From: Myxococcales bacterium
GTDB lineage: Bacteria; Myxococcota_A; Polyangia; Polyangiales; Polyangiaceae
Length of the DNA: 61,096 bases
Direction: 5' to 3'
Assembly (NCBI GenBank): GCA_947473045.1
Contig: CANJCO010000028.1
Location: 1-61,096 of the forward strand
Each line of letters starts with the position of its first letter. The stretch's first letter is position 1. The translations under genes and the position numbers were made by a program. Below the pieces are notes generated by a model that saw only the letters and a list, made by a program, of their open reading frames with translations, did no database searches and had not been told where the DNA came from. Positions 16,191 through 38,070 of this stretch are shown here, in pieces.

Positions 16191-19505
<3,315 letters not shown>

Positions 19506-21196: not shown

Positions 21197-22594
21197 CTAT
21201 TGCGCGCCGTGGTGGGTCATCCGGTTCAAGTCGCCATCGAGCATCCACATGCCAAACACGTGAAACCCCAGGTTCACGCTCACCGCCACGCGACGGCCGT
21301 ACATCGCCTCGAGCGCCTCGGGCACGACGCCGGCGGTCGCCTCGCCGAAGAGGCCAAGCTGCAGCCCGCTCGATGCGCCCCCAAGCACGACGCGCTCGGC
21401 CCCGAGCGTCTCGAAGAGCCACGGCGACGTGACGCCCCCGCCCGCGGCTGCGCTCTCTTCGCGCTGATTGATCTCGCTGCGAAGCCACACGGTGTCGCGG
21501 CGGCTGGGCGACCGCACCGCCACTTCGGCGAGCAACGCCTGAGCCGAATGCCGCGGCTCGGTGGCAGCGGCGTCGGCCACATCGGCCGCCCAGTCGAGCA
21601 GGCCGTCGAAGCGAAAGCCCCGCACGTTGCCCCACGCGTACGCGCTCGCGCTCGCTTGGAACGCATCGGGCTGTCCGTGGCCCTGATCGCGCAAGCGCTC
21701 GCCCGAAACCTGAAGCTCCAGCCACGAGCCAAACGTGTGGCGCACGCGCGCGGCGATCGAGCTGGGCGCGCCCACTTGCGGAAGATTACGGCTGTCGCTC
21801 GGCAGCAGCTCCTTCGCGCTGAACACCGACGACTCAAACCACGTGTCTCCCACGCGAAGCTGAGTGCCAATCACCGGAAACGTCTCGTGCGGATTTTCGC
21901 CCTTGTGATGCTTGCGCGGCACCGTCGGCCCGGGACTGGACGCCCGATGCATGAAGATCGGCGGGCCGATCGTGGCGCTGCCCTGACCGAAGAACACGGC
22001 AAAGTCCGCGCGCCCCTCGGTCATCATGTTTTCGGGATGCCAGCCGGGCAGTCCCGCGAGCGGGTGCACCGAAATGGCCAGTTGGTGAACGAGCTGGTGC
22101 GAATGCTGGGCGTCCCACAATCCTTCTCCGGCCTGACCCAACTCGGGATAGCCCTCGGGGCCGACCGTGAGCGGCTCGAAGTTGAGCATGGCGAGACCCT
22201 CGACGTAGCCGCGCGAATCGCGCCCGTACGCCATCGCCCAGTCGCTCACGAGCAGGGGAATCGTCGCACCGCCGTCGTGGGTGGCCACTGCCTGATTGGC
22301 AATTACGTGCGCGCCGAGGCCGGAATTATGCAAAAATCCGAAGCCGTTGAGCATGAGGTGAATACCGCCTGGCATTCCGGGAGTTCCCGGAATGAGCGCC
22401 GCGCGGGGCGAGGCGTACCCGAGCTGGGCGGGCTCCTCACTCGGCGCTGCAGCGGGGCCCAGGTGCGAAGCCGAATTCGCAGGCTCGGCGGCGGAGGCCG
22501 GACCGGAAGCAGCGAGGGCGCCCGCGACCCACGCCGCGCGCACGGCCGCAAGGCGGCGGAAACAGCGGCTCGCCCTCAACTCGTTGGATTGCAT
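21197..22594 (-). CDS. Exported protein of unknown function, probably outer membrane
   Basis: 465 residues from ATG 22594. The Sec signal ends LAASGPASAAEP, with cleavage likely after ASA. The mature protein has conserved-looking stretches: GIHLMLNGFGFLHN, EGLAMLNFEPLTVGPEGYPE, DAQHSHQLVHQLAISVHPLAG, IGPPIFMHRASSPGPTVPRK, then HHKGENPHETFPVIGTQLRVGD. The C-terminal half has alternating aromatic and polar residues like beta strands. I recall similar proteins in clusters with metal-resistance genes, but their role is unknown. The His-rich middle (several HxH or HH pairs) would suit metal binding. No operon partner is evident. It is divergent from the GDSL lipoprotein gene. Confidence 0.6.
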   Translation of the reverse strand: MQSNELRASRCFRRLAAVRAAWVAGALAASGPASAAEPANSASHLGPAAAPSEEPAQLGYASPRAALIPGTPGMPGGIHLMLNGFGFLHNSGLGAHVIANQAVATHDGGATIPLLVSDWAMAYGRDSRGYVEGLAMLNFEPLTVGPEGYPELGQAGEGLWDAQHSHQLVHQLAISVHPLAGLPGWHPENMMTEGRADFAVFFGQGSATIGPPIFMHRASSPGPTVPRKHHKGENPHETFPVIGTQLRVGDTWFESSVFSAKELLPSDSRNLPQVGAPSSIAARVRHTFGSWLELQVSGERLRDQGHGQPDAFQASASAYAWGNVRGFRFDGLLDWAADVADAAATEPRHSAQALLAEVAVRSPSRRDTVWLRSEINQREESAAAGGGVTSPWLFETLGAERVVLGGASSGLQLGLFGEATAGVVPEALEAMYGRRVAVSVNLGFHVFGMWMLDGDLNRMTHHGAQ

Positions 22595-22704
22595 TCGTAA
22601 ATCTGCCCGCCTTTGCTGCCGCCTGCGGGCCCGCACGCGACCTGGTCATGCTACACCGCTGTGGCCGACGTTGAATCTCCACTCGGCGTCTGAGGAGGCT
22701 TTTC

Positions 22705-23649
22705 ATGATTATTCGTAACGTCCTTGGTTTCGGCGCGCTCGCGCTCGCTCTCGGCGCCTGCAGCAGCGCCAGCACCGACACCCCCGCAGCCGCCGACGCA
22801 GGCACCAAGCCGATCGACTCCGGCGCCGCGGCCGACTCCGCCGTTTCGCACGCGTGCCCGACCTCCGCGCACAAGACGATCGTCGTGGTCGGGGACTCCA
22901 TCTCCGATCAGGGAAGCGGCGAGACGCTGGCGTCCCAGGAGCCGTTTTACCGCACCCTGCTCGTCAAGAACGACGACGCGAAGTACCCCGACTGGAAGGG
23001 AAGCGACCTCTCCACCTGCTGGAAGATCGACCCGACGGCCAACGTCGTGAAGGTTTCTGTCGGCGGAGCAATCGCCACCGAGAAGGTGGGCAAGCAGTCG
23101 GTGCTGCTCGATCAGGTCAAGAGCCTCCCCGCGAGCCTTCCCGGCCCCGTTCTCGTGATCGGGACCATCGGCGGAAACGACGCCCTCGCCGGCCTCGCAG
23201 ACGTGCTCATCGGCACCGCCGAGCAGCAAAAAGCCGACCTCGACGGCTTCATCAAGGGCTTCGGCGACGCAATGACCGAGCTCACCAGGACCGACCGCTT
23301 CGGCGCCGGCGTCAAGGTCGACGTGCTCATGACGAACATCTTCGACCCGAGCGGCGGGACCGGTAACTTCGTTTACACGCCCGAGAAGATCAACTGCCCC
23401 GGCTCATTTTCGCTGTGGCCCGCCGGCAAGCCGACCGATCCGGTTCTCAACGCGTGGGACACGGCGATGCAGGCCGAAGCCGCGAAGTATCCTGGCGTGA
23501 AGCTCCTCGACCTGCACGCGCAGTTCAAGAGCCACGACGTCAATCAGGCCGCCGACGCAAACTGGTTCTACGACGACTGCATTCACCCCAACAGCGCTGG
23601 TCACGAGCACATTCGCGAGCTGTTCTGGGGCGGCATTTCCGCCCTCTAA
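22705..23649 (+). CDS. SGNH/GDSL-type hydrolase lipoprotein
   Basis: 314 residues, with a strong GAGGAGG ahead of the ATG. The lipobox LALGAC is followed by an Ala/Asp/Ser-rich stalk of about 30 residues (STDTPAAADAGTKPIDSG). The SGNH hydrolase domain follows: block I VVVGDSISDQ with Ser65 as the nucleophile, block III GTIGGNDAL, and block V DDCIHPNSAGHEH with the Asp and His of the triad. These enzymes hydrolyse esters or acyl groups of lipids or polysaccharides. The cell location is the outer surface or periplasm. A stable hairpin lies just after the stop. The gene is divergent from the unknown exported protein and seems monocistronic. Confidence 0.9.
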   Translation: MIIRNVLGFGALALALGACSSASTDTPAAADAGTKPIDSGAAADSAVSHACPTSAHKTIVVVGDSISDQGSGETLASQEPFYRTLLVKNDDAKYPDWKGSDLSTCWKIDPTANVVKVSVGGAIATEKVGKQSVLLDQVKSLPASLPGPVLVIGTIGGNDALAGLADVLIGTAEQQKADLDGFIKGFGDAMTELTRTDRFGAGVKVDVLMTNIFDPSGGTGNFVYTPEKINCPGSFSLWPAGKPTDPVLNAWDTAMQAEAAKYPGVKLLDLHAQFKSHDVNQAADANWFYDDCIHPNSAGHEHIRELFWGGISAL

Positions 23650-23748: not shown

Positions 23749-24846
23749 CTACAGCGCGCGGGCTTTGACGACGCTCGATCTTACCTGCGAGCGAAACGCC
23801 CGGAGCGCGTAGTTGTCCATCCCGAGCGAGGCGGCGGTCGCGTAGACTTCGTCCTCGCTGCCGACGCGGTAGTTCGGCGACAGGTGAATCGCCGTGAGGC
23901 CCGACGCCAGACGCACGAGCTGCACTTCGGCAGACGTCGCCACGTCGGAGAGGTGGTGCTTTTCGCACACTTCGATCAGAAAATCGGGCAGCTTCCACGC
24001 GCGCGCAGCAGCAGCGCCGAACTCGACGTGCACGGTTTCGAGCGCGGCAGCGACCACTCCCAGACTCGGCTCGCCAGGCTCCGCCATTTCGCGCCACGCA
24101 GCAGAGACATCGCGAAGCGCGAACGTCTTGCCGATTTCGTGCAGCATGCCAGCGAGAAAACAGTGTTCGAGATTGCCCTTCCGCAGCTCGATGCTCAGGC
24201 TGCCAGCGGCAAACGCGCTCGAGACCGAGTGCAGCCAAAGCTGACCCCACAGATCGCGAAGCAAGCCTCGCGAGGCTTTCATGCCCGAATCGAACACGCC
24301 ACGCGTCGAGAGCGCTGCGGCGATGCCCGCGACCGTCTGCGCTCCGAGGCGCACGATCGCGTCACGGAGCGAGTCGACCTTCTCGCGGCTCGCCGAGGCC
24401 GCCGAGTTGGCGACGCGAAGCACGCTCGCCGATAGCGCGGGGTCGCGCTGCGTGAGCAGCACGAGGCGCTCCATGTCGAAATCGGGATCTTCGAGCAGCG
24501 CGAACAACCGCGACGATCGGGCCGGAAACGGCTGCGCCTCGACTTGAGCGGCATCGAACCGCAGGCGCAGCGCTGTCGACAACCGCTGTACCTGATCGCG
24601 CTCCCCGAGCGTGAGCGGCACGCGCTCGGCAGCGGCGTACTCGCAGCCCTGCGTCAGATCGAAATCTTCGATATCACCGGGTGCCGGCGTGCCTTCGCTC
24701 GCGCGGGTGGAGGCCGGCGCCTCGGGAGTAAGCTCACGCGCGGGCGAAAGCCGCGGAGGGCTGTCACCGTCGCCCTCGTCTGCGGCAGCGACCGCGCCAG
24801 AGCCGAGCTTCGCGAAGAGCGATCGCAGCCAACGCAGGAACGACAT
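23749..24846 (-). CDS. HDOD-domain signalling protein
   Basis: 365 residues. The N-terminal 130 residues are polar and low in structure, including a stretch of Pro, Ala and Glu (about 20-60). The HDOD domain follows from about 130: FALLEDPDFDMERLVLLTQR, DPALSASVLRVANSA, then LRDAIVRLGAQTVAGIAAAL and FLAGMLHEIGKTFAL. HDOD proteins are HD-related but usually lack catalysis and act as scaffolds in signalling or stress responses. The canonical HD pair is absent here apart from the related LHEIGK, in keeping with that view. No neighbour gives a pathway. It starts with ATG at 24846. Confidence 0.85.
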   Translation of the reverse strand: MSFLRWLRSLFAKLGSGAVAAADEGDGDSPPRLSPARELTPEAPASTRASEGTPAPGDIEDFDLTQGCEYAAAERVPLTLGERDQVQRLSTALRLRFDAAQVEAQPFPARSSRLFALLEDPDFDMERLVLLTQRDPALSASVLRVANSAASASREKVDSLRDAIVRLGAQTVAGIAAALSTRGVFDSGMKASRGLLRDLWGQLWLHSVSSAFAAGSLSIELRKGNLEHCFLAGMLHEIGKTFALRDVSAAWREMAEPGEPSLGVVAAALETVHVEFGAAAARAWKLPDFLIEVCEKHHLSDVATSAEVQLVRLASGLTAIHLSPNYRVGSEDEVYATAASLGMDNYALRAFRSQVRSSVVKARAL

Positions 24847-24956: not shown

Positions 24957-25946
24957 TCAGAGCCGGGCAGCGACCAGCAGATCGCCACCCGCGTCATAGT
25001 ACACCTTCGAACAATCCCGGTTCGGCTGCGCCCTGCCCCACGCGCCGCGGTCGACGAATACGCTCGCCTTGGGTGCATCGACATCGAAATAGGCTATTTT
25101 GGCAGTCGCGGTCAGCTCATCGAAATAAAACAGGGCGCGCGCGTCCGACGAAAGCCCCGAGGGCCGTCGCGCCGAGTTTCCCGATTGCACGAGCTCGCCC
25201 TGCGCAGCAAATTCGGCAAGCGGCGGCCACCATACCGAAGCCATCATGCGATCGGCGCGAAGCAGGCCGGGGGCCTGCCCGCCAACATGCCGCGCGACGA
25301 GCGCGAGCCCGACCGCGCCGATGGTGAGGTCGCTCAACCGCTCTGCGGGCGGCATGGCGGCCAGCTGCGCGTTGAGCTGCGCGACCGTCACCATGGGGAG
25401 CGCGAGGTTCGGCGCCACCGACAGCGCATCTCCCGGAGCGGAGCGTGCATACTGCACGATTGCACGCCCTCCCGAAGCGAGCGCGTAGAGGACGAGGCCG
25501 GCCGGCTCGAGCGCGACGCGTTCACCGGGCGCGAGCGCCGAGCCATCGAACGTCTGCTCGCCAGCGAACGTGACGGAGTTCTTGAGGCGATCGGCATAGT
25601 GAATGACGCCGTCCGAAGGCGTAATCCACGCGATCGTGCGCTCATCGTCGGCAATCGCCGAAAGCTGCTTGATTTGCCCCACGCCCAGCCCAAGCGACAC
25701 GCCAGCGCCGTATTTCGCCCCGGGATCGCACGCCGCAGGAACGATGAACGGCCCCGCCTCCGCTGCGTCCATTTTTTCGGCGTCGAAGGCGGCGTCGACC
25801 GAGGCCTCGGCGCCGCCATCATCGCCAGTGGCGACCGACGAATCGGCCGCGGCGCCCGAGTCGAACTTCGCCACTGCAGGACGCGTCTCGCTGCTGCAGC
25901 CGAGCGCCACGCAGCCGACTGCGAGCCAGAGCAAACGCGCCGTCAT
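24957..25946 (-). CDS. Lipoprotein of unknown function
   Basis: 329 residues from ATG 25946, which overlaps the stop of the upstream mosaic lipoprotein (ATGA). The signal is LLWLAVGCVALGC with lipobox ALGC. A long Asp/Ala/Ser-rich stalk follows (FDSGAAADSSVATGDDGG and onward to about residue 60). The rest contains repeated hydrophobic and aspartate-rich strands such as IAWITPSDGVIHYADR, ARALFYFDELTATAKIAYFD and SKVYYDAGGDLLVAARL, which suggests a beta-propeller-like fold. No catalytic motif is recognised. Co-translation with the 1067-residue protein implies a shared role at the cell surface. Confidence 0.7.
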   Translation of the reverse strand: MTARLLWLAVGCVALGCSSETRPAVAKFDSGAAADSSVATGDDGGAEASVDAAFDAEKMDAAEAGPFIVPAACDPGAKYGAGVSLGLGVGQIKQLSAIADDERTIAWITPSDGVIHYADRLKNSVTFAGEQTFDGSALAPGERVALEPAGLVLYALASGGRAIVQYARSAPGDALSVAPNLALPMVTVAQLNAQLAAMPPAERLSDLTIGAVGLALVARHVGGQAPGLLRADRMMASVWWPPLAEFAAQGELVQSGNSARRPSGLSSDARALFYFDELTATAKIAYFDVDAPKASVFVDRGAWGRAQPNRDCSKVYYDAGGDLLVAARL

Positions 25947-28900
25947 ATGGCGTCCACGCAATCGTAGCTGAGCTGCCACTGATTGAGCGTGGGCGCCGCC
26001 GGGGGATTCGACGAAGGGTTCAGGGTCGACGTCACGCGCAGATAGCTCTTCGAGACCTGCCCCGCCGCGACGAGCTGCTGCTCGACGGTATTGGCGAGGC
26101 TCGTCCAGTTGGCAGTCGTGAAGTTGGCAGTACCGACCGACACCGCCGCGCCGTACGGGTCGGCGAGAAGCTCTTTGGTCTGCGCGGTAAAGGCAATCGA
26201 GGTGCCCGCCGGAATTACCGCCTGCCAGCTGTAGAACTTCCACGCCGGCCGCTTCTGCGCAGGGCACACGGCCACATATTCACGGGTATAAGACGCTTGC
26301 GCGTACTGCGAAAACGCTGCCGGCGCGATGCATTTTCCGCTCAAGCACCGCGTGCCGGTCGCGAAGGTGCAGCAGTTGCCGTCGTTGGAGCACGCGCCGT
26401 TGTCCGCGATGCAGCCGTTGACGCCATTGGCCACGCAGTGGCGCACAGGAGGATTGGCAATCGGAGAATCGAGGGTGCATGCCGCCAGCTTCGGGTTCGA
26501 AGTGCCGCCGCAGCAGTCGAGATCGGTCGTGCACACTCCCCCCGTGTGGGGGCTCGAATTGGCCGGCTCCGACACCCCGCAGGCGTCGAGTGCAAAGTAG
26601 GCGCGCGAGTTGCCGGCCAGCAGCTCCTGCCCGGGCAGGTAGAACGCCGGATAGCTCGGGTCCTGGCCGGGCGTGGGGTTGTTCGCGATGGCCGCGACCC
26701 AAAGCTTCTTTGGTGTGGGCTCGGCGCTGATGTCGATGAAGCGCGGATCGCTCGCGTACGGATTGACCGTCGCGATGTTGCCGTACATGCGTCGCGAGGT
26801 GAAGACCACCCACGAATAACCGCCGATTTGAATCGGCAGCACCGTGGGCTCGTAGTTGTAGATGGTGTCGTTGTAGTTCGCTGTATTGATATCGAAGCCC
26901 CACGCGTCGCGGGCTTTGTACTGCGCAAAATAGGTATTGTAGAGGGCGCCGGTCGGGTCGCCGTGGAGGTTCGGTCCGGTCGGCAGGTTCACGCCGTTGA
27001 GGTTCGTCAGCGCCGTGTAGGTGACCGGGCCGGACGTGTTCAGGTACCAGAGGTTGCTCACCGCGCCGGTGTCGGAGCAGTTCCACAGCCCGTAGCCGTT
27101 GAAGTACGTATTGCCGAGATAAAACTGGCCCGACGGGGCGTCGCAGTGGTGGCGGGTAAAGCCGAAGCCGCCGTCCTGCGAAGGCCAGATCTCCCACTCG
27201 GCGATCAGGCCATTTTGGCCGGTCGGAAGAAACGACGGCCACGCCCAGCTGTTGAACAGCGGCTTGCCGAGGTTGACGTGATTCGAAAACGTCATCGTCG
27301 CCGGGTTGAAATTCATGACCGAGAGCGTTGCGCGGTCGCCGCTGGTCACGCCGGAGGGCGGATTTGCGATGGCAGGTCCGTTGACGACGGAGTTGTTCCA
27401 GTTCCACCAGTTGAACGCCAACTGTTTGCCGTCGGCCGAGAACGCCGGCGATGCCGCGCTGAGTCCGCCGAACATCGTGCGCGTGTTCGGCAGCGCGGCG
27501 CCGTTGATCGAGTACAGCGCGCTCGTCCCGGTATTGGTGCTCCCGGGCATCGAGCTGGTGTCCGAGAAGCCGTAGGTACCGTTGGGCGAGAGCGCCTGCC
27601 AGGCATAGGTGCCATTCGGCCCCAGCGGCGTCTCCGTGTTCTGCGGATTCGGATTCGTGATGTCGTATTTGAACGTATAATAATCCGAGCCGCGGAGAGT
27701 CGTCAGCACGTTGCCGTTTCCGGACGCCGAGTGGCAGCCACGGCAACCGGTGACGAAGACATTTGTGCCCGCGGCGATGGCCGGCTTCGCAGCGCCCGGC
27801 GCCACGCTCAAGGTGGCCGCCCCGAACAACTGGCCATTGTAAGTGTAACCGTAGTTCTGACTCAGATTGGTGCCATACGACTGGTAATAAATGCGACCCT
27901 TGAGCTGGTCGCTCGCGAACCGAACCGTAATCGTCTGCTCAGTCTTGAGAACGCCGCCGACGATGCGCTGCACCGCGACCGTGCCCGTGTCGCCGAGCTT
28001 GGCGCGGTTGCGATTGACGGTCTGCTCGAAGTCGAACCACGCGTTTTGCGGGATCATCCCGCGGGGCTGCGATTTGGGCGTCTTGCCGCCGACGGTGTCG
28101 GCCTGCGTGGTCAGCTCATTGATGATTTCCGACCAACGAAACGGCGCCGTGTTGGCGGGGGCGCCCGCCGGATAGCGCAGCGACACCATCACCGCGTTCG
28201 CGGTCGCGCCCTTGTTGTCCCACTGAATCACGGGCGGGATCTGCCCGAGCGGGAAGGTGGTGTTGTCATACGGATACAGCCAGCGCACGTTGTCGGCGCC
28301 GCCGGGCGCCACCGTGAACTTCGTCGCGTCGTAGCCTGCGGGCGCCGCAGTGGCGTCGACGGCGTTGACAGTGACGTTCACCACTGCAGTCGCCGAAAGA
28401 TTGCCGGTTATCGCCTGCACGTTGAGCGTGGTGGCCACCGGCGTGATGAGCGTCACCTTGCCGGGATTGGGATCTTTGATCGAGTCGATCTTCGCAATAT
28501 CGTATTGATCGAGCCCCCATATGGCCGGCGCCGGACCCGAATAGCAGCTCAGCGGCGTGAGCGTCGCCGTGAGCTGATTGGTAAAGGTCTTGTTGATATC
28601 GGTAACGATGATGGTCGACGGCGTAGGCGTGATCGCGAGCCCCGTGCACAGCGGCGGCGTAACAATGGTGCCCGTGAGGGTGACGCCGGCCTCGGTGACC
28701 GACAGTCCGGGGCCCGCGTCGATGCCCGGAGGCGTGTCGGTAAACGACAGGCAGTCGGGATCGCACGGATCGTCGACGCACTTCTGAGAGGCGCCGAGCC
28801 CCTGCATATGAATGCCGCCGAGCGATTTCGTCGTTTCGCGCTCGCCGACGCACGCGCCCCAGAGGCCGCCTTGGCATTTGCGGTGCCCGATCGAGCAACG

Positions 28901-29146
28901 CACTTCCGTTCCCGAGCGCTCCGTCACCACGCCGCAGTCGACGCTGGCTCCTTCGACGGGGCACGCGCACAGCTCCTGCGGGGTTTGACACCCGTCGCCG
29001 GCAGACGCGGCAGGCAGGGCGCCGTTGTCGCCCGGCGCGCCCGCCTGGTCAGCGGCGCAGCCGGCGATGACGATCGAAAGCGCGGCGGTAACAAAAACAC
29101 GCCAAGCGTTTGCCGACTGGGCCGTTACGGCAACCGTGTTTCGCAT
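25943..29146 (-). CDS. Large mosaic lipoprotein with heme c motif and Cys-rich repeats
   Basis: 1067 residues. The lipobox is IVIAGC near residue 30. Next comes a Cys-rich segment (about 50-135, with CDPDCLSF), then Ig-like strand-rich regions (about 150-400), including a bacterial Ig-2-like part (TLITPVATTLNVQAITG). A CRGCH motif, one c-type heme site, is near residue 467. A propeller-like part follows (SAASPAFSADGKQLAFNWW). Residues about 852-945 hold disulfide-knot-like repeats with CTTDLDCCGG and CSNDGNCCTF. Cys pairs and the lipobox indicate an oxidised extracellular site. No family name fits the whole protein. The downstream lipoprotein gene overlaps it by 4 bp. Confidence 0.75.
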   Translation of the reverse strand: MRNTVAVTAQSANAWRVFVTAALSIVIAGCAADQAGAPGDNGALPAASAGDGCQTPQELCACPVEGASVDCGVVTERSGTEVRCSIGHRKCQGGLWGACVGERETTKSLGGIHMQGLGASQKCVDDPCDPDCLSFTDTPPGIDAGPGLSVTEAGVTLTGTIVTPPLCTGLAITPTPSTIIVTDINKTFTNQLTATLTPLSCYSGPAPAIWGLDQYDIAKIDSIKDPNPGKVTLITPVATTLNVQAITGNLSATAVVNVTVNAVDATAAPAGYDATKFTVAPGGADNVRWLYPYDNTTFPLGQIPPVIQWDNKGATANAVMVSLRYPAGAPANTAPFRWSEIINELTTQADTVGGKTPKSQPRGMIPQNAWFDFEQTVNRNRAKLGDTGTVAVQRIVGGVLKTEQTITVRFASDQLKGRIYYQSYGTNLSQNYGYTYNGQLFGAATLSVAPGAAKPAIAAGTNVFVTGCRGCHSASGNGNVLTTLRGSDYYTFKYDITNPNPQNTETPLGPNGTYAWQALSPNGTYGFSDTSSMPGSTNTGTSALYSINGAALPNTRTMFGGLSAASPAFSADGKQLAFNWWNWNNSVVNGPAIANPPSGVTSGDRATLSVMNFNPATMTFSNHVNLGKPLFNSWAWPSFLPTGQNGLIAEWEIWPSQDGGFGFTRHHCDAPSGQFYLGNTYFNGYGLWNCSDTGAVSNLWYLNTSGPVTYTALTNLNGVNLPTGPNLHGDPTGALYNTYFAQYKARDAWGFDINTANYNDTIYNYEPTVLPIQIGGYSWVVFTSRRMYGNIATVNPYASDPRFIDISAEPTPKKLWVAAIANNPTPGQDPSYPAFYLPGQELLAGNSRAYFALDACGVSEPANSSPHTGGVCTTDLDCCGGTSNPKLAACTLDSPIANPPVRHCVANGVNGCIADNGACSNDGNCCTFATGTRCLSGKCIAPAAFSQYAQASYTREYVAVCPAQKRPAWKFYSWQAVIPAGTSIAFTAQTKELLADPYGAAVSVGTANFTTANWTSLANTVEQQLVAAGQVSKSYLRVTSTLNPSSNPPAAPTLNQWQLSYDCVDAI

Positions 29147-29310
29147 GAGCTGGCAGGCTATCGCGACCCGCAGTGGCCGCCACGTAAAAATGTCGGCGCG
29201 CAGCAGCGGCGTGTGCGACGCTGAAGGTTTCTTCAGTGCGCGCGGCTCCGGCGGCGCCGGGTTCGAACGATTGTGCCCGCGAGCGGCGCCCGAGGCCGCA
29301 TACTTCGGCG

Positions 29311-30840
29311 ATGTCGCGGCCCCGCCTCATTGTTTTGCTCGACCCGCCCCACGCCACGCGCGGCGGGGACTGGTATTATCGCGCATTTGCGCCAGGTCGC
29401 GCGATGAGCGAACGCGACGGCGTTTATGTCGTCGGTTGCGATCGCCTGCATCGCGCGCTGCCACGCCTCGCGCGCGCCGCCGACGTTCTGGTGCTCAACA
29501 GCGTGTGCGACGCCGATTTGTTTCCGCTCATCGCGGAGCGCGGGGCGCGAAACGCCGCGACGGTGTTCGAGGTCAGCGACGATTTTTCGGCCGTCCAACC
29601 CTGGAATCCAATTTACGGATTTTACCAGAATCCCGCCAACGTGCGGCTGTACAAACAGCTGGCGCGCGCCTGCGACGCCATGCAGCACACCGTGCCGGAG
29701 CTTGCGCGGCTCTACGGGCATCTCGGGCGAAGCAGCCGCGTGTTCGTCAACCACCTGCTCGAAATGCCGCCGCCCCCCCGACGCAGCGACGGCGAGAGGC
29801 TGCGCATCGGATGGGGCGGTTCGAGCGGGCACCGCGAAGACATCGCGCGCATCGCGCCTGCCCTGTGTCAGTGGATCAGCCACACCCCGGGAGCCACCCT
29901 CGCGCTCATGTGCTCCGACTCGATTTGGGAGCTGTTCGCCTCACTTCCGAATACCAGAAAGGCGCGCACAGCCACCGGCTCGATTGACGACTATTACCGA
30001 TTTGTAGCGTCGCTCGACATCGGCCTCGCGCCGCTCGGCGACACGGCCTTCAACCGCTCGCGCTCCGACGTGAAGTTCGTTGAATATGCCGCGTTCGGCG
30101 CCGCCGCCATCGTGCAGGATTTCGAGCCTTACCGATCCACCGCAAAAGACGGCGAAAATGCGCGCGTCGTTCGCGACAGTGACGGCCTCGTGGCCGCGCT
30201 CGACGCGCTCGCGAAGTCGCCCGGCGAGCGCGCGCGCCTTCGCGACGCCGCGTACAGTTACGTTTCAACGGAGCGAACGCAACGGGCGCACGCCGCCGAG
30301 CGACTCGATTTCTACGCGTCGCTCGCGGCCGGCGATTGTCCCGGCGCCGTTGATATAGCCGCCCTGTTTGGCGAGATTGAGAGCTGGGAGGGTGCGGAGG
30401 TGACGGGCCGGCACGCGCTGCTCGCCCACACCCGCATCGAGCGCGGCATGCACGACGCCCTCGTGCTCGCGCAGCAGGACGGAAAGCGCGCAGAGGCCCG
30501 CAGCCTGCTCGCCGATGTTGCGCGCCGGGCTCCCGCGCTCGACCTGCCGCACCTCTACGCAGGCGGGCTCTTCGCCGACGCCACGGAGCTCACGAAGGCT
30601 TTGAAGCTCAATCCCAAATCGGTTACCGCCCTGGTCGGGCTCGGCCGGATCGCCCTCGCGGCAGGCGCCGCCGCCGAGGCGCTGGGCTATTTTGTGCGCG
30701 CGATCGAGCTGGCCCCCGCGCACGATGAGCTCTACCGGCAGGCGTCGGTAGCCGCCGCGGCGCTGGGCGCGAAGCCCGATGCGGCGAGCTTGCTCGAGCA
30801 CGCCGAGACGCTCGCACGGCAGCTCGAACCCGCCGCGTGA
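29311..30840 (+). CDS. Glycosyltransferase-like protein with C-terminal TPR region
   Basis: 509 residues from ATG 29311. The start is set by the Rossmann-like first strand MSRPRLIVLLDPPHATRGGD. The second GT domain begins RIGWGGSSGHREDIARI and includes FVASLDIGLAPLGDTAFNRS and VKFVEYAAFGAAAIVQ, matching the donor-binding half of GT-B transferases. From about residue 400 the sequence becomes helical with TPR-like units (TALVGLGRIALAAGAAAEAL). The donor sugar and acceptor are unknown. The gene is alone, divergent from the mosaic lipoprotein across 164 bp, so a link to surface glycoprotein or polysaccharide assembly is only suggested by position. Confidence 0.8.
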   Translation: MSRPRLIVLLDPPHATRGGDWYYRAFAPGRAMSERDGVYVVGCDRLHRALPRLARAADVLVLNSVCDADLFPLIAERGARNAATVFEVSDDFSAVQPWNPIYGFYQNPANVRLYKQLARACDAMQHTVPELARLYGHLGRSSRVFVNHLLEMPPPPRRSDGERLRIGWGGSSGHREDIARIAPALCQWISHTPGATLALMCSDSIWELFASLPNTRKARTATGSIDDYYRFVASLDIGLAPLGDTAFNRSRSDVKFVEYAAFGAAAIVQDFEPYRSTAKDGENARVVRDSDGLVAALDALAKSPGERARLRDAAYSYVSTERTQRAHAAERLDFYASLAAGDCPGAVDIAALFGEIESWEGAEVTGRHALLAHTRIERGMHDALVLAQQDGKRAEARSLLADVARRAPALDLPHLYAGGLFADATELTKALKLNPKSVTALVGLGRIALAAGAAAEALGYFVRAIELAPAHDELYRQASVAAAALGAKPDAASLLEHAETLARQLEPAA

Positions 30841-30921: not shown

Positions 30922-31512
30922 GTGAAAGCTACTGTCGCCCCGATCTTCGCCCTCGTGATCGCCGCCTGCGCGTCGACGTCGCCGGCGCCACCCGCCGCCA
31001 CCGGTCCCGACGCGGCCACCGCCGATGCCGCCGTCGCGCACCCCGACTCGGGAGCCTTCCAGCTCACGAGCACCGCGTTTACCGACAACGGCACAATGGG
31101 TGCAGAATACACTTGCGACAGCGAGGCCGGCGCCGGCCACAGCCCCCCGCTCGCGTGGACGGGCGCCCCCGCCGGAACAACCGAATTTGCCCTGCTCGCC
31201 ACGACGCTCGCCAAAGACGGACTCAAGTGGAACTGGGTGGTCTATGGCATTCCGGCGGCTACCACCCATCTCGACGTGGGGTCCACAGGAGTGGGCACCA
31301 CCGGCATCACGAGCGACGGACCCGCGCTCGCGTACGCTCCGCCGTGCTCGCAGGGCCCCGGGCTCAAGACCTACACGTTCACGCTTTATGCCCTGTCGGG
31401 GCCCCCAATGCTGCCAGCCCCGGCGAGCCAGGTGACAGGGGCCGTGCTCACCGCAGCGATCGCGTCGCTGACACTGGGGTCGAGCGCGATTACTGCAGGA
31501 TACACGCGTTAA
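30922..31512 (+). CDS. YbhB/YbcL-type PEBP lipoprotein with diverged ligand motifs
   Basis: 196 residues from GTG 30922, with AAGGAG upstream. The lipobox is VIAAC, followed by an Ala/Pro/Asp-rich stalk. The fold is that of Raf-kinase-inhibitor-like (PEBP) proteins: SPPLAWTGAPAGTTEFALL, WNWVVYGIPA and YTFTLYALSG are typical core strands. The usual DPDAP ligand-site motif is replaced by TTLAK, and the GPCPP-x-G-x-HRY motif appears as PPCSQGPGLKTY. So the fold is retained while the anion pocket is altered. The function of bacterial PEBP proteins is not clear. It seems monocistronic. Confidence 0.85.
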   Translation: MKATVAPIFALVIAACASTSPAPPAATGPDAATADAAVAHPDSGAFQLTSTAFTDNGTMGAEYTCDSEAGAGHSPPLAWTGAPAGTTEFALLATTLAKDGLKWNWVVYGIPAATTHLDVGSTGVGTTGITSDGPALAYAPPCSQGPGLKTYTFTLYALSGPPMLPAPASQVTGAVLTAAIASLTLGSSAITAGYTR

Positions 31513-31519
31513 GCGGACC

Positions 31520-33658
31520 TCACACTGCGAAGACGACGCTGAACACTGCGCCTTCATCGGTGCGTGCGATCAGCTTCCCTTTTACCTGCCGGGTCAGTGA
31601 ACGCACGAGCTGAAGACCCAAGGTCGCGCTGCGGTCGACGCTAAATCCGTCGGGCAGCCCGGGTCCGCGATCGCGAACGGACAGGTGAATCTCTCCGCCG
31701 CGCTTCGCGATCTGCACGAGGACGTCATATCCAACGTCGGCGCGATTGGCCGGAGCGAGTCCGTACTTGAAGGCGTTGGTCACCAGCTCGTTGAGAATCA
31801 GCCCCACCGGAACGGCGTGCTCGACCGTCACCAGCGCCGAATTGGCGTCGATCTGCAGACGCGCCGACGGCGCGAGCGCGAAGCGCAGCGACTCGCCGAG
31901 ATCGCGTGCGTAGGTCGCCAGCTCGATGCGCTCGAGCGACGTCGAGCCGTAGAGGTGCTGGTGGATGAGCGCCATCGACCTCACCCGCTGCACACTCTCG
32001 GCGAGCAGCGCACGGGAGGTGCCCTCGGGCACGTGCTCCATCTGGAGCGTCAGCAGGCTCGAGACGATTTGCAGGTTATTTTTGACGCGATGGTGAATCT
32101 CTTTGAGCAGCGTCTCTTTTTCGCTGAGCGATCGCTTGAGGTCGAGCTCCATGCGCTCGCGCTCGCTGAGCGCCTCGTTGCGCAGGCGCACCCGGTCCTC
32201 GAGCTCGGCGCGCTCGTGGAGCAGTCGCGTCTCGCGCGCATGCGCGCGGGTCACGTCGCTGGCCAGCAGCACGAGACGCCGCGGACCGTTCCAGCTCATC
32301 ACCAGACTGCGCACTTCGACCCGCAGATCCGACCCGTCCTTGCGACGAAACACCGCCGCCTCGAACGCGAGCTCGGCCGACTCGGCGAGTCGGTTGGCGG
32401 AGGCTGAAAACCAGCGCTGCCGAAGCCCGTCGGTGAAGTCGGGATAGACCGCGCGCATCGAACTGCCAATCAGCGCGTCGTACTCCCAGCCGAGCTCAGC
32501 CACCGCGCGCGCGTTGGCGTCGACAATGCAGCCGCGATCGTCGAGCACGATCATGGGCCCGACGACGTGCTCGACCACAGCGCGGAGCTGGAGCTGACTC
32601 GCGACCAGCTCATCTTCGGCACGCACGCGTCCCGCGATGTCTCCCATGCGTGCGTCCAGCAGACCGGCGAGCAGCTCGAGGCGCTCGTCGAGCTTTTCAA
32701 TCTCGGCGGGCTCGTCGTCTTCGCCGCGCGCCTTGAGCGCCCTGACCAGCGCCCGCGCGTCGGCGAGGGGGTCGGCCAGCTCGCCCCGCACCTCGGCCAC
32801 CACGCGGGAGTGCGCGGCGCCGCTGCGTTCGAGCGAGATGTCGCGCAGCACGCAGATGACCTGGTCGTCGACGTCGTGCACGCGCGACACGCTCATCCCC
32901 GCGCTGACCACCTCGCCCGAGAGGCGCACGAAGCGCAGCTCGCGCCGCGTTGGGCTGTCGGGTCGCCCCAGGGTGTGCGCGATCATGGCGCTGGCCAGCG
33001 CGCGGTCGGCGGGCAGTAGAAACGACGAAAGCTCACGGCCGAGCAGCATGCCTGTAGCGCGCCCGGTCAGCGCGCCAAAGGCAGGATTGACGCGAACGCA
33101 GCGCCCGCCGCGCTCGACGATCACCAGCGACAGAGGCGAATCGAGCCACGCTCTGCGAAACGCGAGCCCCTCGATGTAATGCTCGACGAGGCTCGCGATG
33201 CGGGCGAGGGTCGCCTTCTCCTCGCGAGTCCACTGTCGCGGCTCGTGGTCGACGACGCAGAGCGTACCGATGGCGCTCTGCCCAAGGCCACCAAGCAAAG
33301 GCACGCCGAGGTAGGCGCGCACGTCGACGGCGCCCACCACGAGAGGATTGGCGGCGAAGCGCGCATCTTCATGCGAGTCGGGGACGGACATCGGCAAATT
33401 GTCGACCACGGCATGACCGCAAAAGCTCTCGCTGCGCCCAGTGCCGTGCTCGGCGAGGCCAACGCGCGAGAGAATAACCTGGCGGTCGTCTTCGACGAGC
33501 GAAACAAGCGCGATGGGCACGCCGAGCACGGTCGAGGCGAGCGCAGTCAAGTTGTCGAGCACCTCGTGCGATTGCCCTTCCCGAATTCCGAGGCGCAAGA
33601 GCCTGCGAAGGCGGTCGGGCTCGTCGACGGGAACTGGCGCGGGCACCCACGGCGCCAT
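31520..33658 (-). CDS. GAF/PAS sensor histidine kinase (HisKA_2 type)
   Basis: 712 residues, no membrane helix visible. In order: a GAF domain (about 25-165, with SESFCGHAVV and YLGVPLLGGLGQSAIGTLCV), a PAS domain (about 170-290, ending DVDDQVICVLRDISLER), a helical linker, a second PAS domain (about 345-470, ending RRLVLLASDVTRAH), a coiled coil, the HisKA_2 domain with [12 protein letters not shown] near residue 522, and a HATPase domain with ILNELVTNAFKYG and the G-box LGLQLVRSLTRQV. It is a paralog of the kinase at 11780-14296. The GAF type fits cofactor or light/redox sensing, but no chromophore Cys is identified. No receiver gene is adjacent. Confidence 0.93.
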   Translation of the reverse strand: MAPWVPAPVPVDEPDRLRRLLRLGIREGQSHEVLDNLTALASTVLGVPIALVSLVEDDRQVILSRVGLAEHGTGRSESFCGHAVVDNLPMSVPDSHEDARFAANPLVVGAVDVRAYLGVPLLGGLGQSAIGTLCVVDHEPRQWTREEKATLARIASLVEHYIEGLAFRRAWLDSPLSLVIVERGGRCVRVNPAFGALTGRATGMLLGRELSSFLLPADRALASAMIAHTLGRPDSPTRRELRFVRLSGEVVSAGMSVSRVHDVDDQVICVLRDISLERSGAAHSRVVAEVRGELADPLADARALVRALKARGEDDEPAEIEKLDERLELLAGLLDARMGDIAGRVRAEDELVASQLQLRAVVEHVVGPMIVLDDRGCIVDANARAVAELGWEYDALIGSSMRAVYPDFTDGLRQRWFSASANRLAESAELAFEAAVFRRKDGSDLRVEVRSLVMSWNGPRRLVLLASDVTRAHARETRLLHERAELEDRVRLRNEALSERERMELDLKRSLSEKETLLKEIHHRVKNNLQIVSSLLTLQMEHVPEGTSRALLAESVQRVRSMALIHQHLYGSTSLERIELATYARDLGESLRFALAPSARLQIDANSALVTVEHAVPVGLILNELVTNAFKYGLAPANRADVGYDVLVQIAKRGGEIHLSVRDRGPGLPDGFSVDRSATLGLQLVRSLTRQVKGKLIARTDEGAVFSVVFAV

Positions 33659-33820
33659 CAGGACGCCGCTGTCGTGAGCAGGAGAAAGTCCCGAGCGCGC
33701 AAGGGTTAATCATAAGGCACGCCCGCTCGCATCGCAACGGATCGCACCGCGGGGCCCAACGTTCGCGGCGACGCAATACGGTTGTAAATTGCAGCCCAGC
33801 CGCAGTGGCTGAGCTTGGCG

Positions 33821-33838
33821 GCCGCGCGATCGCGCGGC
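33821..33838. repeat. 18-bp perfect palindrome upstream of the YHYH gene
   Basis: GCCGCGCGATCGCGCGGC reads the same on both strands. It lies in the divergent gap between the GAF/PAS kinase and the YHYH lipoprotein and ends 12 bp before that ATG. It contains GCGATCGC, a motif found as a common repeat in some genomes. It could be a protein site or a transcript hairpin close to the start codon. Confidence 0.5.
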
Positions 33839-33850
33839 TATCGTGGCGCG

Positions 33851-34816
33851 ATGATGCGAAAAGCCGTCTTTGCCGTCTTCGGACTCTCGATCGCCGCGTG
33901 CTCCAGCGCGTCGGACGTCGCCGCCATTACGCCGGACGCGAGCGCGTCGCTCGACGCGACCGCGACGCCCGACGGCAGCGCGCCGGATGGTTCGGCAGGC
34001 GCAGACGCCAGCGCGGCGCCCGACGGCGCATCGGGCAACGCGTGCTCGCTCGCTGCGAGCACCTCGCCGACGAGCAAGGTCAGCGCCGACGGCTGCGCAG
34101 TGCTGACCCGCGATGCGAGCGCTTGCAACGCGGCGCGCGTCGCGGCTGGCCTCACCGGCGACTGGCTGAAGTTCTCGTGCCGGGTGACGCTCACCGTCGA
34201 CAAGCTCACCGGCCCGGTGCCCTTCGTGCTCGTCTCCGCCGACAGCCAACCCGACTACCTGAGCAACTACTTTGCGACGAGCAGCGCCTGCTACGAAAAC
34301 TACCAGGTCAAGGGCATGCCTACGCCCAACAAGATCGCCGTGCAGAGCGTGAAGTCGAAGGTGCCACTTACCCCCGACGCCAAGGGTGTGGCGAAGAAGA
34401 CGAACAACGCCGGCGTCGCCGTCAACGGCGTGTGGCTGTTCAACGACGCCGCGGCCCCGCCCGACGACATTTACAAGGCGATCAACTCATTCGACCGGTG
34501 CACCGGACACCCCGATCCGCAAAACGGGGGAACCTACCACTATCACATCGAGCCCACCTCAATCTCGAACGACGACGCGAACCTCGTCGGCGTCATGCGG
34601 GACGGCTATTTTGTTTACGGGCGACGCGACCTCAGCTTGGTGGTTCCAAGCGATCTCGACGCCAACGGCGGCCATACGACTGTGACCTCCCATAGTCCCA
34701 ATACGCCCGTCTACCACTACCACCTCAAGCAGGAGACCAGCACCAACCCGGGCACGCTCGGGCAGATGGCCTGGTTCGTGGGCGTGGGCAACTTCCACGG
34801 CTCCGTGCTGCCGTGA
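33851..34816 (+). CDS. YHYH-domain lipoprotein
   Basis: 321 residues from ATG 33851 (a second in-frame ATG follows directly). The signal is VFAVFGLSIAAC with lipobox IAAC. A long low-complexity stalk of Asp, Ala, Ser and Gly follows to about residue 70. The domain carries TYHYHIE near residue 229 and VYHYHLK near 288, the paired Tyr-His-Tyr-His motif that names the YHYH family. The family occurs in secreted proteins and its biochemical role is unsettled. A metal or cofactor site built on the His residues is plausible. It is divergent from the GAF/PAS kinase and ends shortly before the convergent receiver gene. Confidence 0.85.
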   Translation: MMRKAVFAVFGLSIAACSSASDVAAITPDASASLDATATPDGSAPDGSAGADASAAPDGASGNACSLAASTSPTSKVSADGCAVLTRDASACNAARVAAGLTGDWLKFSCRVTLTVDKLTGPVPFVLVSADSQPDYLSNYFATSSACYENYQVKGMPTPNKIAVQSVKSKVPLTPDAKGVAKKTNNAGVAVNGVWLFNDAAAPPDDIYKAINSFDRCTGHPDPQNGGTYHYHIEPTSISNDDANLVGVMRDGYFVYGRRDLSLVVPSDLDANGGHTTVTSHSPNTPVYHYHLKQETSTNPGTLGQMAWFVGVGNFHGSVLP

Positions 34817-36257: not shown

Positions 36258-36995
36258 ATGACCCAATCCGACGCCGAGCGTTCGCTGCGCATCAACCTCG
36301 CGGCCTGCTACCGACTCATCGCCCTCTATGGTTGGGACGACCTCGTCTTCACCCACATCTCCGCGCGAATTCCAGGACCAGAGCACCACTTCCTCATCAA
36401 CCCGTACGGCATGCTGTTCGAGGAGATCTGCGCGAGCAGCCTGGTGAAGATCGATCTCGGCGGCGACAAAGTCGAACCCAGCGAATATCCCGTCAATCCA
36501 GCCGGTTTCGTGATTCACAGCGCCATTCACGCGGCCCGCGAAGACGTCACGTGCGTACTGCACACGCACACCCCTGCCGGAGTCGCGGTGAGCGCGCAGG
36601 CTGGCGGACTGTTGCCGATCTCCCAACAGGCGACGGTCGCGCTCGCGTCGCTCGGCTACCATGACTACGAGGGGATCGCCCTGCGCGACGACGAGAAACC
36701 CAGGCTTGTGCGCGACCTCGGCTCGAACATGGGTCTCATGCTTCGCAATCACGGCCTGCTGACCGTCGGCGCGAGCATCGCCGACGCGTTCCTCGCCATG
36801 TACAACCTGCAGCGCGCGTGCGAAGTTCAGGTGCTCGCTCAGGCCGGCGGCGCGGCGCTCACGAGCGTGCATCCAATGATCGTCGAAGGTGTCCGGCAGA
36901 ACATCGCCAAAGTCACGCGGGGCATGGGCGGCGAGCTCGCGTGGCCAGCGCTGCTCCGCAGGCTCGACCGCAGCGGCGCACGCTACAAGGACTGA
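36258..36995 (+). CDS. Class II aldolase/adducin family protein
   Basis: 245 residues from ATG 36258 (a TTG at 36246 is also in frame). The family includes fuculose- and rhamnulose-phosphate aldolases, ribulose-phosphate epimerases and decarboxylases that use a Zn ion. The metal motifs are present: FTHISARIPG at the N-terminus, VTCVLHTHTPAGVAVS with the HxH pair, and MLRNHGLLTVG with the third His. The substrate is not readable, and the closest forms are often of unknown role. It lies 17 bp after a universal stress gene and 142 bp before moxR. Confidence 0.9.
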   Translation: MTQSDAERSLRINLAACYRLIALYGWDDLVFTHISARIPGPEHHFLINPYGMLFEEICASSLVKIDLGGDKVEPSEYPVNPAGFVIHSAIHAAREDVTCVLHTHTPAGVAVSAQAGGLLPISQQATVALASLGYHDYEGIALRDDEKPRLVRDLGSNMGLMLRNHGLLTVGASIADAFLAMYNLQRACEVQVLAQAGGAALTSVHPMIVEGVRQNIAKVTRGMGGELAWPALLRRLDRSGARYKD

Positions 36996-37137
36996 TCCGG
37001 CCCCGAATGCGACAGCGCTGCTCGCGGAAGAAGGCAGCCTCGCCGCAGGTTCGCGCGCGCCGCCCGAGCACCTGCGCCCCGCGCCGCGTTCGCGGTCGCG
37101 TCGCGGCGCGATCCCTGCGACAATGCGAGGCGAGTTG

Positions 37138-38070
37138 ATGCCCCATCACGAGCTCGTTCGAGGTCTGCGCGAGGGTCTTTGCGGCGTGCTGCGCGGCAAG
37201 CCGCTCGCCGTCGATCTGGCGCTGATCGGCATATTCGCCAGCGGTCACGTGCTGCTCGAGGACGTTCCGGGCGTAGGCAAAACCACGCTCGCAAAAGCCC
37301 TCGCGAAGGCGTTCGGCGTCCGCTTCTCGCGCGTGCAGTTCACTCCCGACCTGCTGCCCGGCGACATTACGGGCGGCCTCGTGCTCGCGCCCGACAAGGG
37401 AACGTTTTCGTTTCACCGCGGCCCTGTCTTCACCAACGTGCTGCTGGCCGACGAAATCAACCGCGCCTCGCCGCGCACGCAGGCCTCCCTGCTCGAGGCC
37501 ATGAACGAGGCGCAGGTAACCGTCGACGGCGAGACGCACAGCCTCGATTCGCCGTTCTTCGTGATCGCGACCCAAAACCCGGCCGACTATCAAGGCACCT
37601 ACCCCCTGCCCGAGGCGCAGCTCGATCGGTTTCTGGTGCGACTGTCGATCGGCTATCCCGACCCGGCCGACGAGCTCGCGATGCTGTTCGCCCGGCAGCA
37701 CGATGACCCGCTCGCGGCGTTGCAGGCGTTGTGCTCGAGAGCCGAACTGCTTGACGTGCAGCGAGCCGTTCGCGAGGTCGAGGTGAAGCCGATCGTCGCC
37801 AGCTACATGCTCGCCATCGTGCGCGCCTCGCGCGTCGATCCGGCGCTTTCGCTAGGCGTAAGCCCGCGCGGGTCGCTGGCGCTCTTTCGCGCAGCCCAGG
37901 CGCAGGCGTTTATGAGCGGTCGTGATTACGTGACGCCGGAAGACGTTCAGGCCATCGCGCCGGCGACACTGTGTCACCGAATCGCGCTTCGCGACGAGGC
38001 CCGCTACGGAGGCTCAAGCGACCGGGAGGTCGTCGCGCGGATCCTCGGCGCAGTGCGCGTGCCGGTGTGA
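37138..38070 (+). CDS. MoxR-family AAA+ ATPase
   Basis: 310 residues from ATG 37138, preceded by GAGGCGAG. An ATG at 37123 would add five residues. MoxR ATPases are chaperone-like and act with von Willebrand or DUF58 partners on metal centres or envelope proteins. Walker A is DVPGVGKTT (about residues 42-50), Walker B LLADEINRA (Asp near 105), sensor 1 FFVIATQNP, and the lid contains VSPRGSLALFRAAQA. Length is standard. The stop overlaps the next gene (GTGA), a DUF58 protein, which is followed by a transglutaminase, a conserved three-gene set. Confidence 0.94.
   Translation: MPHHELVRGLREGLCGVLRGKPLAVDLALIGIFASGHVLLEDVPGVGKTTLAKALAKAFGVRFSRVQFTPDLLPGDITGGLVLAPDKGTFSFHRGPVFTNVLLADEINRASPRTQASLLEAMNEAQVTVDGETHSLDSPFFVIATQNPADYQGTYPLPEAQLDRFLVRLSIGYPDPADELAMLFARQHDDPLAALQALCSRAELLDVQRAVREVEVKPIVASYMLAIVRASRVDPALSLGVSPRGSLALFRAAQAQAFMSGRDYVTPEDVQAIAPATLCHRIALRDEARYGGSSDREVVARILGAVRVPV

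Follow-up and report, generated by a model that had tools for sequence, protein, structure and literature searches.

What role could a single CxxCH motif, the signature of heme c attachment, play in a large mosaic lipoprotein? The question is raised by a locus of a Myxococcales bacterium of the family Polyangiaceae, which we analyzed within a stretch of 61,096 nucleotides (contig CANJCO010000028.1 of assembly GCA_947473045.1, hereafter the window). The locus consists of gene A, encoding the mosaic lipoprotein, and gene B, encoding a second lipoprotein, whose start overlaps the stop of A (Table 1). Neither protein matches a family above the cut-off in Pfam or NCBIfam. Our results support the view that A is a lipoprotein built of modules, probably has a site for heme c, and is accompanied by a conserved partner to which it is often translationally coupled. 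The reading that we favor, to which we give a probability of about one half, is that A and B form a tethered two-lipoprotein binding complex where a heme c acts locally and is not an electron conduit.

A contains exactly one CxxCH motif and B contains none. At least one such motif was present in 0.83% of 20,000 shuffles of mature A, and a chance origin is untenable because the motif is conserved among relatives. We found at least 274 relatives of A in one genome collection, using a 25-row alignment and two sequence patterns, with record titles naming myxobacteria or older bins of Deltaproteobacteria or Proteobacteria. Among the 80 that were kept, CxxCH is present in 79 and CxxxCH in the remaining one (L128), always at the same register ahead of the blade turn; the 12 that missed a stricter register pattern did so solely at the residue preceding the glycine. 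(L-numbers designate the compared loci, either of relatives or of the same genome, which is itself designated G000.) In the 54-row alignment (A3), C468, C471, and H472 are invariant, with 53 CxxCH and one CxxxCH. The longer spacing was found in three sequences, L043 (same contig as L128), L029, and L007, which retain the Cys and the CH and fall on both sides of the tree. Hence, the change in spacing seems to have had more than one origin. The genome has around ten heme-propeller loci, and the seven that we read, A included, comprise six CxxCH and one CxxxCH. It also has three matches to cytochrome c assembly. Eight of 377 genomes of the phylum lack a cytochrome c assembly family and none of them is among the 69 with a match to the A3 profile, which is a weak test since around 1.5 would be expected by chance. 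Judged from sequence, covalent attachment of heme c at this motif is probable.

The motif is placed in an unusual fold. In the predicted model of A, built from 54 sequences and without heme (mean predicted local distance difference test, pLDDT, of 80.4, around 75-84 at residues 460-509; predicted template modelling score of 0.70), residues 412-855 match the six-bladed propeller of Escherichia coli TolB (Z 22.2, root-mean-square deviation, rmsd, of 3.1 over 263 aligned residues). A match to the propeller of LRP6 has a Z of 18.7. The PD40 profile scores 12.7 bits on A, below its cut-off of 20.9, and matches 31 of 54 relatives at E<=0.01. Around the motif, strands 469-474, 480-485, 491-495, and 506-509 form a normal four-stranded blade with no helix, such that in the model the CxxCH is outside any cytochrome c fold. 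By register, H472 replaces the proline that opens a blade and C471 the aromatic residue preceding it; this proline is found elsewhere in the family as P567 (54/54), P637 (46/54), and P517 (27/54). From the blade topology, an attached heme should be at the D-A loop side of the propeller channel, that is, at one of its mouths. We considered that the propeller might contain an inserted cytochrome c domain, as suggested by weak Pfam, NCBIfam, and PDB matches at the motif, and rejected this because the model has a four-stranded blade and six blades in total.

A preliminary description of this DNA had proposed that A combines a lipobox, Ig (immunoglobulin)-like parts, one CxxCH, a propeller-like region, and knot-like cysteine repeats with CC doublets, and that a second lipoprotein gene overlaps it by ATGA. 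All these elements were recovered. The Ig-like part corresponds to residues 165-270, which are all-beta in the model; Big_2 was detected there in 3 of 54 relatives and A has weak PDB profile matches to Ig-like chains. In the knots, 11 of the 12 cysteines are invariant in the 54-row alignment and 12 of 12 in the 25-row alignment, and, apart from those of the CxxCH, the core outside the knots has no other conserved cysteine (54 rows). The middle of A (residues 164-943, approximately) matches around nine other loci in its own genome, and its two ends (residues 12-159 and 937-1067) have matches in three long proteins of this genome whose middles differ. Since the middle and the ends match different proteins, A is also an evolutionary mosaic.

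We call frame the N and C modules taken together. Each module is also found alone in the genome as a small lipoprotein (N module, L185:3795-4136, 113 residues; C module, L184:5365-5892, 175 residues), and the C-module profile matches 80 of 377 genomes of the phylum at E<=1e-5. The centers of other frame proteins are diverse (IgGFc-binding, VWA, and CNA-B-like). Among the first seven, Pfam identified IgGFc_binding in L034 (1.2e-77) and VWA in L047 (6e-8), and the remaining five had weak CarboxypepD_reg matches below the cut-off. Nine further scans, eight of frames lacking the heme core and one of a frame that has it (L045), revealed DUF4215 and PA14 in L182 and weak CarboxypepD_reg in others. 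Four of the seven heme-type frames that were scanned carry PA14: L170 (9e-40), L171, L183, and L051, the latter together with CBM60 (1.6e-13). The tree computed from 75 core sequences groups the 26 heme-type frame proteins in a single clade (support 0.999) and separates them from the 49 stand-alone proteins (0.487), which suggests a single origin of the fusion between the frame and the heme propeller. We also observed an A-type gene in two parts at L044:4927-8105 (same contig as L087), with an N-module open reading frame (ORF) of 240 residues and the rest in 819 residues, overlapping by 4 bases. Its sister L086 is a single ORF, and L044 is either a frameshift or a true split. In L045:5956-12034 and L091:3128-9195, two frame genes are arranged head to head, one with a heme core and one without.

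The pairing of A with B is recurrent. We searched a B profile, built from six sequences, in 183 genomes of the order, and considered matches at E<=1e-20 as strong. Among the 25 strong matches, 23 are directly behind a gene ending in a C module, one is behind another B, and one has no adjoining frame. Six of the 25 served to build the profile; 18 of the remaining 19 are directly behind a frame gene. In the sample derived from A, leaving aside L084 and L162, which stop at contig ends, B adjoins 9 of the 11 heme-type frames whose downstream DNA is long enough, and in L088 it is split over two frames. The corresponding figure over all loci is 23 of 25, which is biased upward because L164-L183 were chosen for holding B, and the A-derived value is fairer. 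The preliminary description had made its idea of a coupled pair depend on such co-occurrence, which is thus found. An in-frame start of B at -4 is present in 18 of 29 pairs (14 ATG and 4 GTG). B is also found behind six frames lacking the heme core (L034, L046, L165, L166, L176, and L182), and no convincing B was found at the core-only loci among the kept relatives, where the one match is weak (E 0.0013) and on the opposite strand. Since B is directly behind frame genes even where the center lacks a heme motif, it follows the frame and not the heme. A second frame-B pair is present in the genome under study (contig 31 of G000, L034:3679-7240), with an IgGFc-binding center replacing the heme propeller. 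Short N-module ORFs were also seen just past B on the opposite strand (L046:9757-10248, L165:6856-7341, and L166:8300-9064). Structure prediction, proposed earlier as a check of both proteins, gave a propeller in B as well as in A; residues 74-329 of B have a best match with a Z of 14.2 (rmsd 3.7, 210 aligned residues).

These observations lead us to the following proposal. The frame of A would display a payload, in this case a TolB-like propeller with six blades. A single heme would be joined to C468 and C471 by the cytochrome c maturation machinery, H472 being a ligand, and would be positioned at the inner-strand start of blade 2, in one of the mouths of the propeller channel. B, translated right after A, would assemble with the frame, and the pair would be tethered at the outer membrane, probably facing outward, where it may bind extracellular material, e.g., polysaccharide or a cell surface. 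At the face that binds, the heme would carry out chemistry or sensing locally, with no electron wiring across the membrane. Frame and B would be the constant part, for tethering and assembly, and the center an exchangeable head. In Myxococcus xanthus, the signals of inner-membrane and matrix lipoproteins are Lys at +2 and Ala at +7, respectively (PMC3222651). Mature A begins with C-A-A-D-Q-A-G, and both A and B lack these two signals, so an outer-membrane placement is compatible with both. Because the heads that we found are domains for binding, and those of the heme type can include domains that bind carbohydrate, we favor a role of the heme propeller as a head for binding or sensing. Redox sensing or cell contact, both named in the preliminary description, may be involved; we lean towards extracellular polymer binding given the PA14 and CBM60 matches in sequences of relatives.

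Several observations weigh against this proposal. The models of A and of B were both built without heme, and that of B has a mean pLDDT of only 66.8 and is based on 8 sequences. When six isolated heme-blade segments were scanned, none matched PD40 and two had weak cytochrome matches, which does not help the reading of this segment as a blade. No invariant Met or His is found downstream of the CxxCH in the 54 rows that could be a second heme ligand. His757 and His832 are present in 38/41 and 35/41 of the stand-alone relatives, but in 0/13 and 3/13 of the frame proteins; therefore, proteins of the A type show no obvious conserved second ligand. PA14 is absent from A itself. Concerning the pair, B is missing behind two heme-type frames despite sufficient downstream sequence (L042, which is the same as L089, and L085), a strong B in genome G094 (L164) has no frame alongside, and weaker B-like lipoproteins stand without a nearby frame, suggesting that B is drawn from a wider family. 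The distances between B sequences do not track those of the N module, the C module, or the core (mirror-tree, Spearman 0.03-0.29), a comparison that is uninformative.

The missing distal ligand also bears on whether there is a heme at all. The two cysteines could be disulfide-bonded where the blade starts or, together with the histidine, make up a metal site. This is in line with a fold that is a propeller and not a cytochrome c, and with a Cytochrom_C score of 15.6 bits for a cut-off of 21.3. However, the histidine is invariant in 54/54 rows and would be needless for a disulfide, no additional invariant Cys or His was found that could be the fourth ligand of a metal, and the spacing variants retain the heme c pattern, which makes this explanation unlikely. 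If a heme is bound, it might be structural or aid the maturation of the partner, contributing to the stability of A or B with no redox work. There is a precedent in TfcP of M. xanthus, a single-heme protein with unusual ligation, showing that in myxobacteria a cytochrome c can act in support of a surface protein, PilY1.1, without electron transport (PMC8833165). The lone heme without a conserved second ligand and the tight A-B pairing fit with this possibility. Yet, TfcP is small and soluble, has a cytochrome c-like fold with His/Cys ligation, and belongs to a pilus cluster, and B also pairs with frames lacking the heme motif. We regard it as slightly less likely than a site without heme.

The preliminary description had also suggested extracellular electron transfer, with A handing over electrons at the cell surface. 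A probable heme on a lipoprotein and the number of related heme-propeller loci in the genome speak for it. On the other hand, A has a single motif, B has no motif and is also associated with heme-less frames, and the analysis of 32 loci revealed no recurrent multiheme, porin, or oxidoreductase neighbor: protein kinases recur at 6 of the 32 and the other shared genes link just 2-4 loci. Known operons for this process combine propeller proteins with cytochromes of 16 and 26 hemes (PMC5539420). An electron conduit would require extra hemes or a heme-bearing partner. Because only one motif is present and no multiheme or porin neighbor recurs, this part of the earlier description is not retained as the leading reading, and we consider it improbable. 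Finally, A could be a heme enzyme acting on a small substrate in the manner of the alpha subunit of hydrazine synthase (HZS-alpha, 5C2V), where one chain combines a propeller of six blades with a CxxCH heme c that has unusual ligands, a combination akin to that predicted for A, and Tyr421 and Tyr424 are invariant (54/54) close to the heme blade. In HZS-alpha, however, the heme has a Tyr ligand and belongs to a middle domain distinct from the propeller (PMC12607021, PMC12758564). A has no Tyr four residues past the histidine (residue 476 is Gly, and the family has mostly A, S, P, or G there), the beta-gamma partner is absent, and HZS_alpha (PF18582) is unmatched in the genome at E<=1 and in the 54 relatives, so A is not a member of this family. 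The matches listed by the fold search include no HZS subunit except 5C2V_B, and no cytochromes, which shows nothing by itself. Such an enzyme is the least probable of these explanations.

The tethered binding complex that we favor resembles several other systems in part. A shares its predicted fold and the blade motif PxFSPDG with TolB/PD40 proteins, but has a CxxCH in place of the blade-opening pair of a hydrophobic residue and a proline, and is a long multi-domain lipoprotein. Like class I cytochromes c, it has one CxxCH, but in the model this lacks the surrounding helix, and there is no conserved distal Met or His. The LDL receptor and LRP6 also have a six-bladed propeller and, after it, a Cys-rich module, a similarity in arrangement only, and they have no heme. 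Cytochrome f is an all-beta heme c protein. PilY1 combines a propeller with an exchangeable N-terminal part such as VWA, but its propeller has seven blades (PMC13190605) and its gene is in a pilus cluster; its domain PF05567 is unmatched in A and B at E<=1. The CxxCH of cytochrome cd1 is in an N-terminal extension (PMC10654088), and the Encyclopedia of Domains includes unnamed novel folds with CxxCH (PMC7618865). Hence, heme c on unusual folds is generally not new. Among the matches listed by our searches of the open-access literature (on lipoprotein cytochromes for extracellular electron transfer in Myxococcota, a subject for which no paper came up, c-type cytochromes with propellers, cytochromes of Sorangium and Polyangiales, and surface modules), the family of A is not described.

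Table 1. Features of the A-B locus and neighboring genes, with positions in the window.
Feature	Positions	Strand	Remarks
Gene A	25943-29146	minus	mosaic lipoprotein, 1067 residues
Signal peptide of A, residues 1-30	29057-29146	minus	lipobox IAGC (Cys30), read from sequence
N module of A, residues 30-159	28670-29059	minus	Cys-rich
Ig-like (Big_2-type) domain of A, residues 165-270	28337-28654	minus	model and relatives
Pre-propeller domain of A, residues 280-411	27914-28309	minus	LYPYDxT motif
Six-bladed TolB-like beta-propeller of A, residues 412-855	26582-27913	minus	predicted model
CxxCH of A (CRGCH: C468, R, G, C471, H472)	27731-27745	minus	inner-strand start of blade 2
Two tandem 6-Cys knottin-like motifs of A, residues 856-939	26330-26581	minus	with CC
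C module of A, residues 953-1065	25952-26290	minus	beta-sandwich, two invariant Cys
ATGA overlap, A stop and B start	25943-25946	minus	
Gene B	24957-25946	minus	lipoprotein, 329 residues, lipobox ALGC (Cys17)
Propeller of B, residues 74-329	24960-25727	minus	predicted model
AcrB	16191-19505		Pfam
ORF with no family	21197-22636		Pfam
GDSL lipoprotein	22705-23649		Pfam
HDOD protein	23749-24846		Pfam
Glycosyltransferase with TPR	29293-30840		Pfam
PEBP	30922-31512		Pfam
GAF-PAS-HisKA_2 kinase	31520-33658		Pfam
YHYH protein	33815-34816		Pfam
MoxR ATPase	36889-38070		Pfam

The wider significance depends on the heme. If it is bound, c-type attachment would be possible on a propeller strand, which would widen the notion of what a cytochrome is, and such sites would be invisible to searches based on the cytochrome c fold; the Pfam cytochrome scores are here all below the cut-off. 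More tentatively, and with somewhat less confidence than for the complex itself, heme c set directly into the inner strand of a blade in a TolB-type propeller may be a separate c-type class spread through Myxococcota, and the frame with B a general system of envelope display where payloads such as the heme propeller and the IgGFc-type, VWA, and CNA-B-like heads are interchangeable. If so, the frame and B would constitute a ready display scaffold for envelope proteins. Myxobacteria are noted for contact-dependent predation and social life, and in this group the unusual place of the probable heme, together with a co-made propeller partner, suggests an undescribed kind of envelope receptor.

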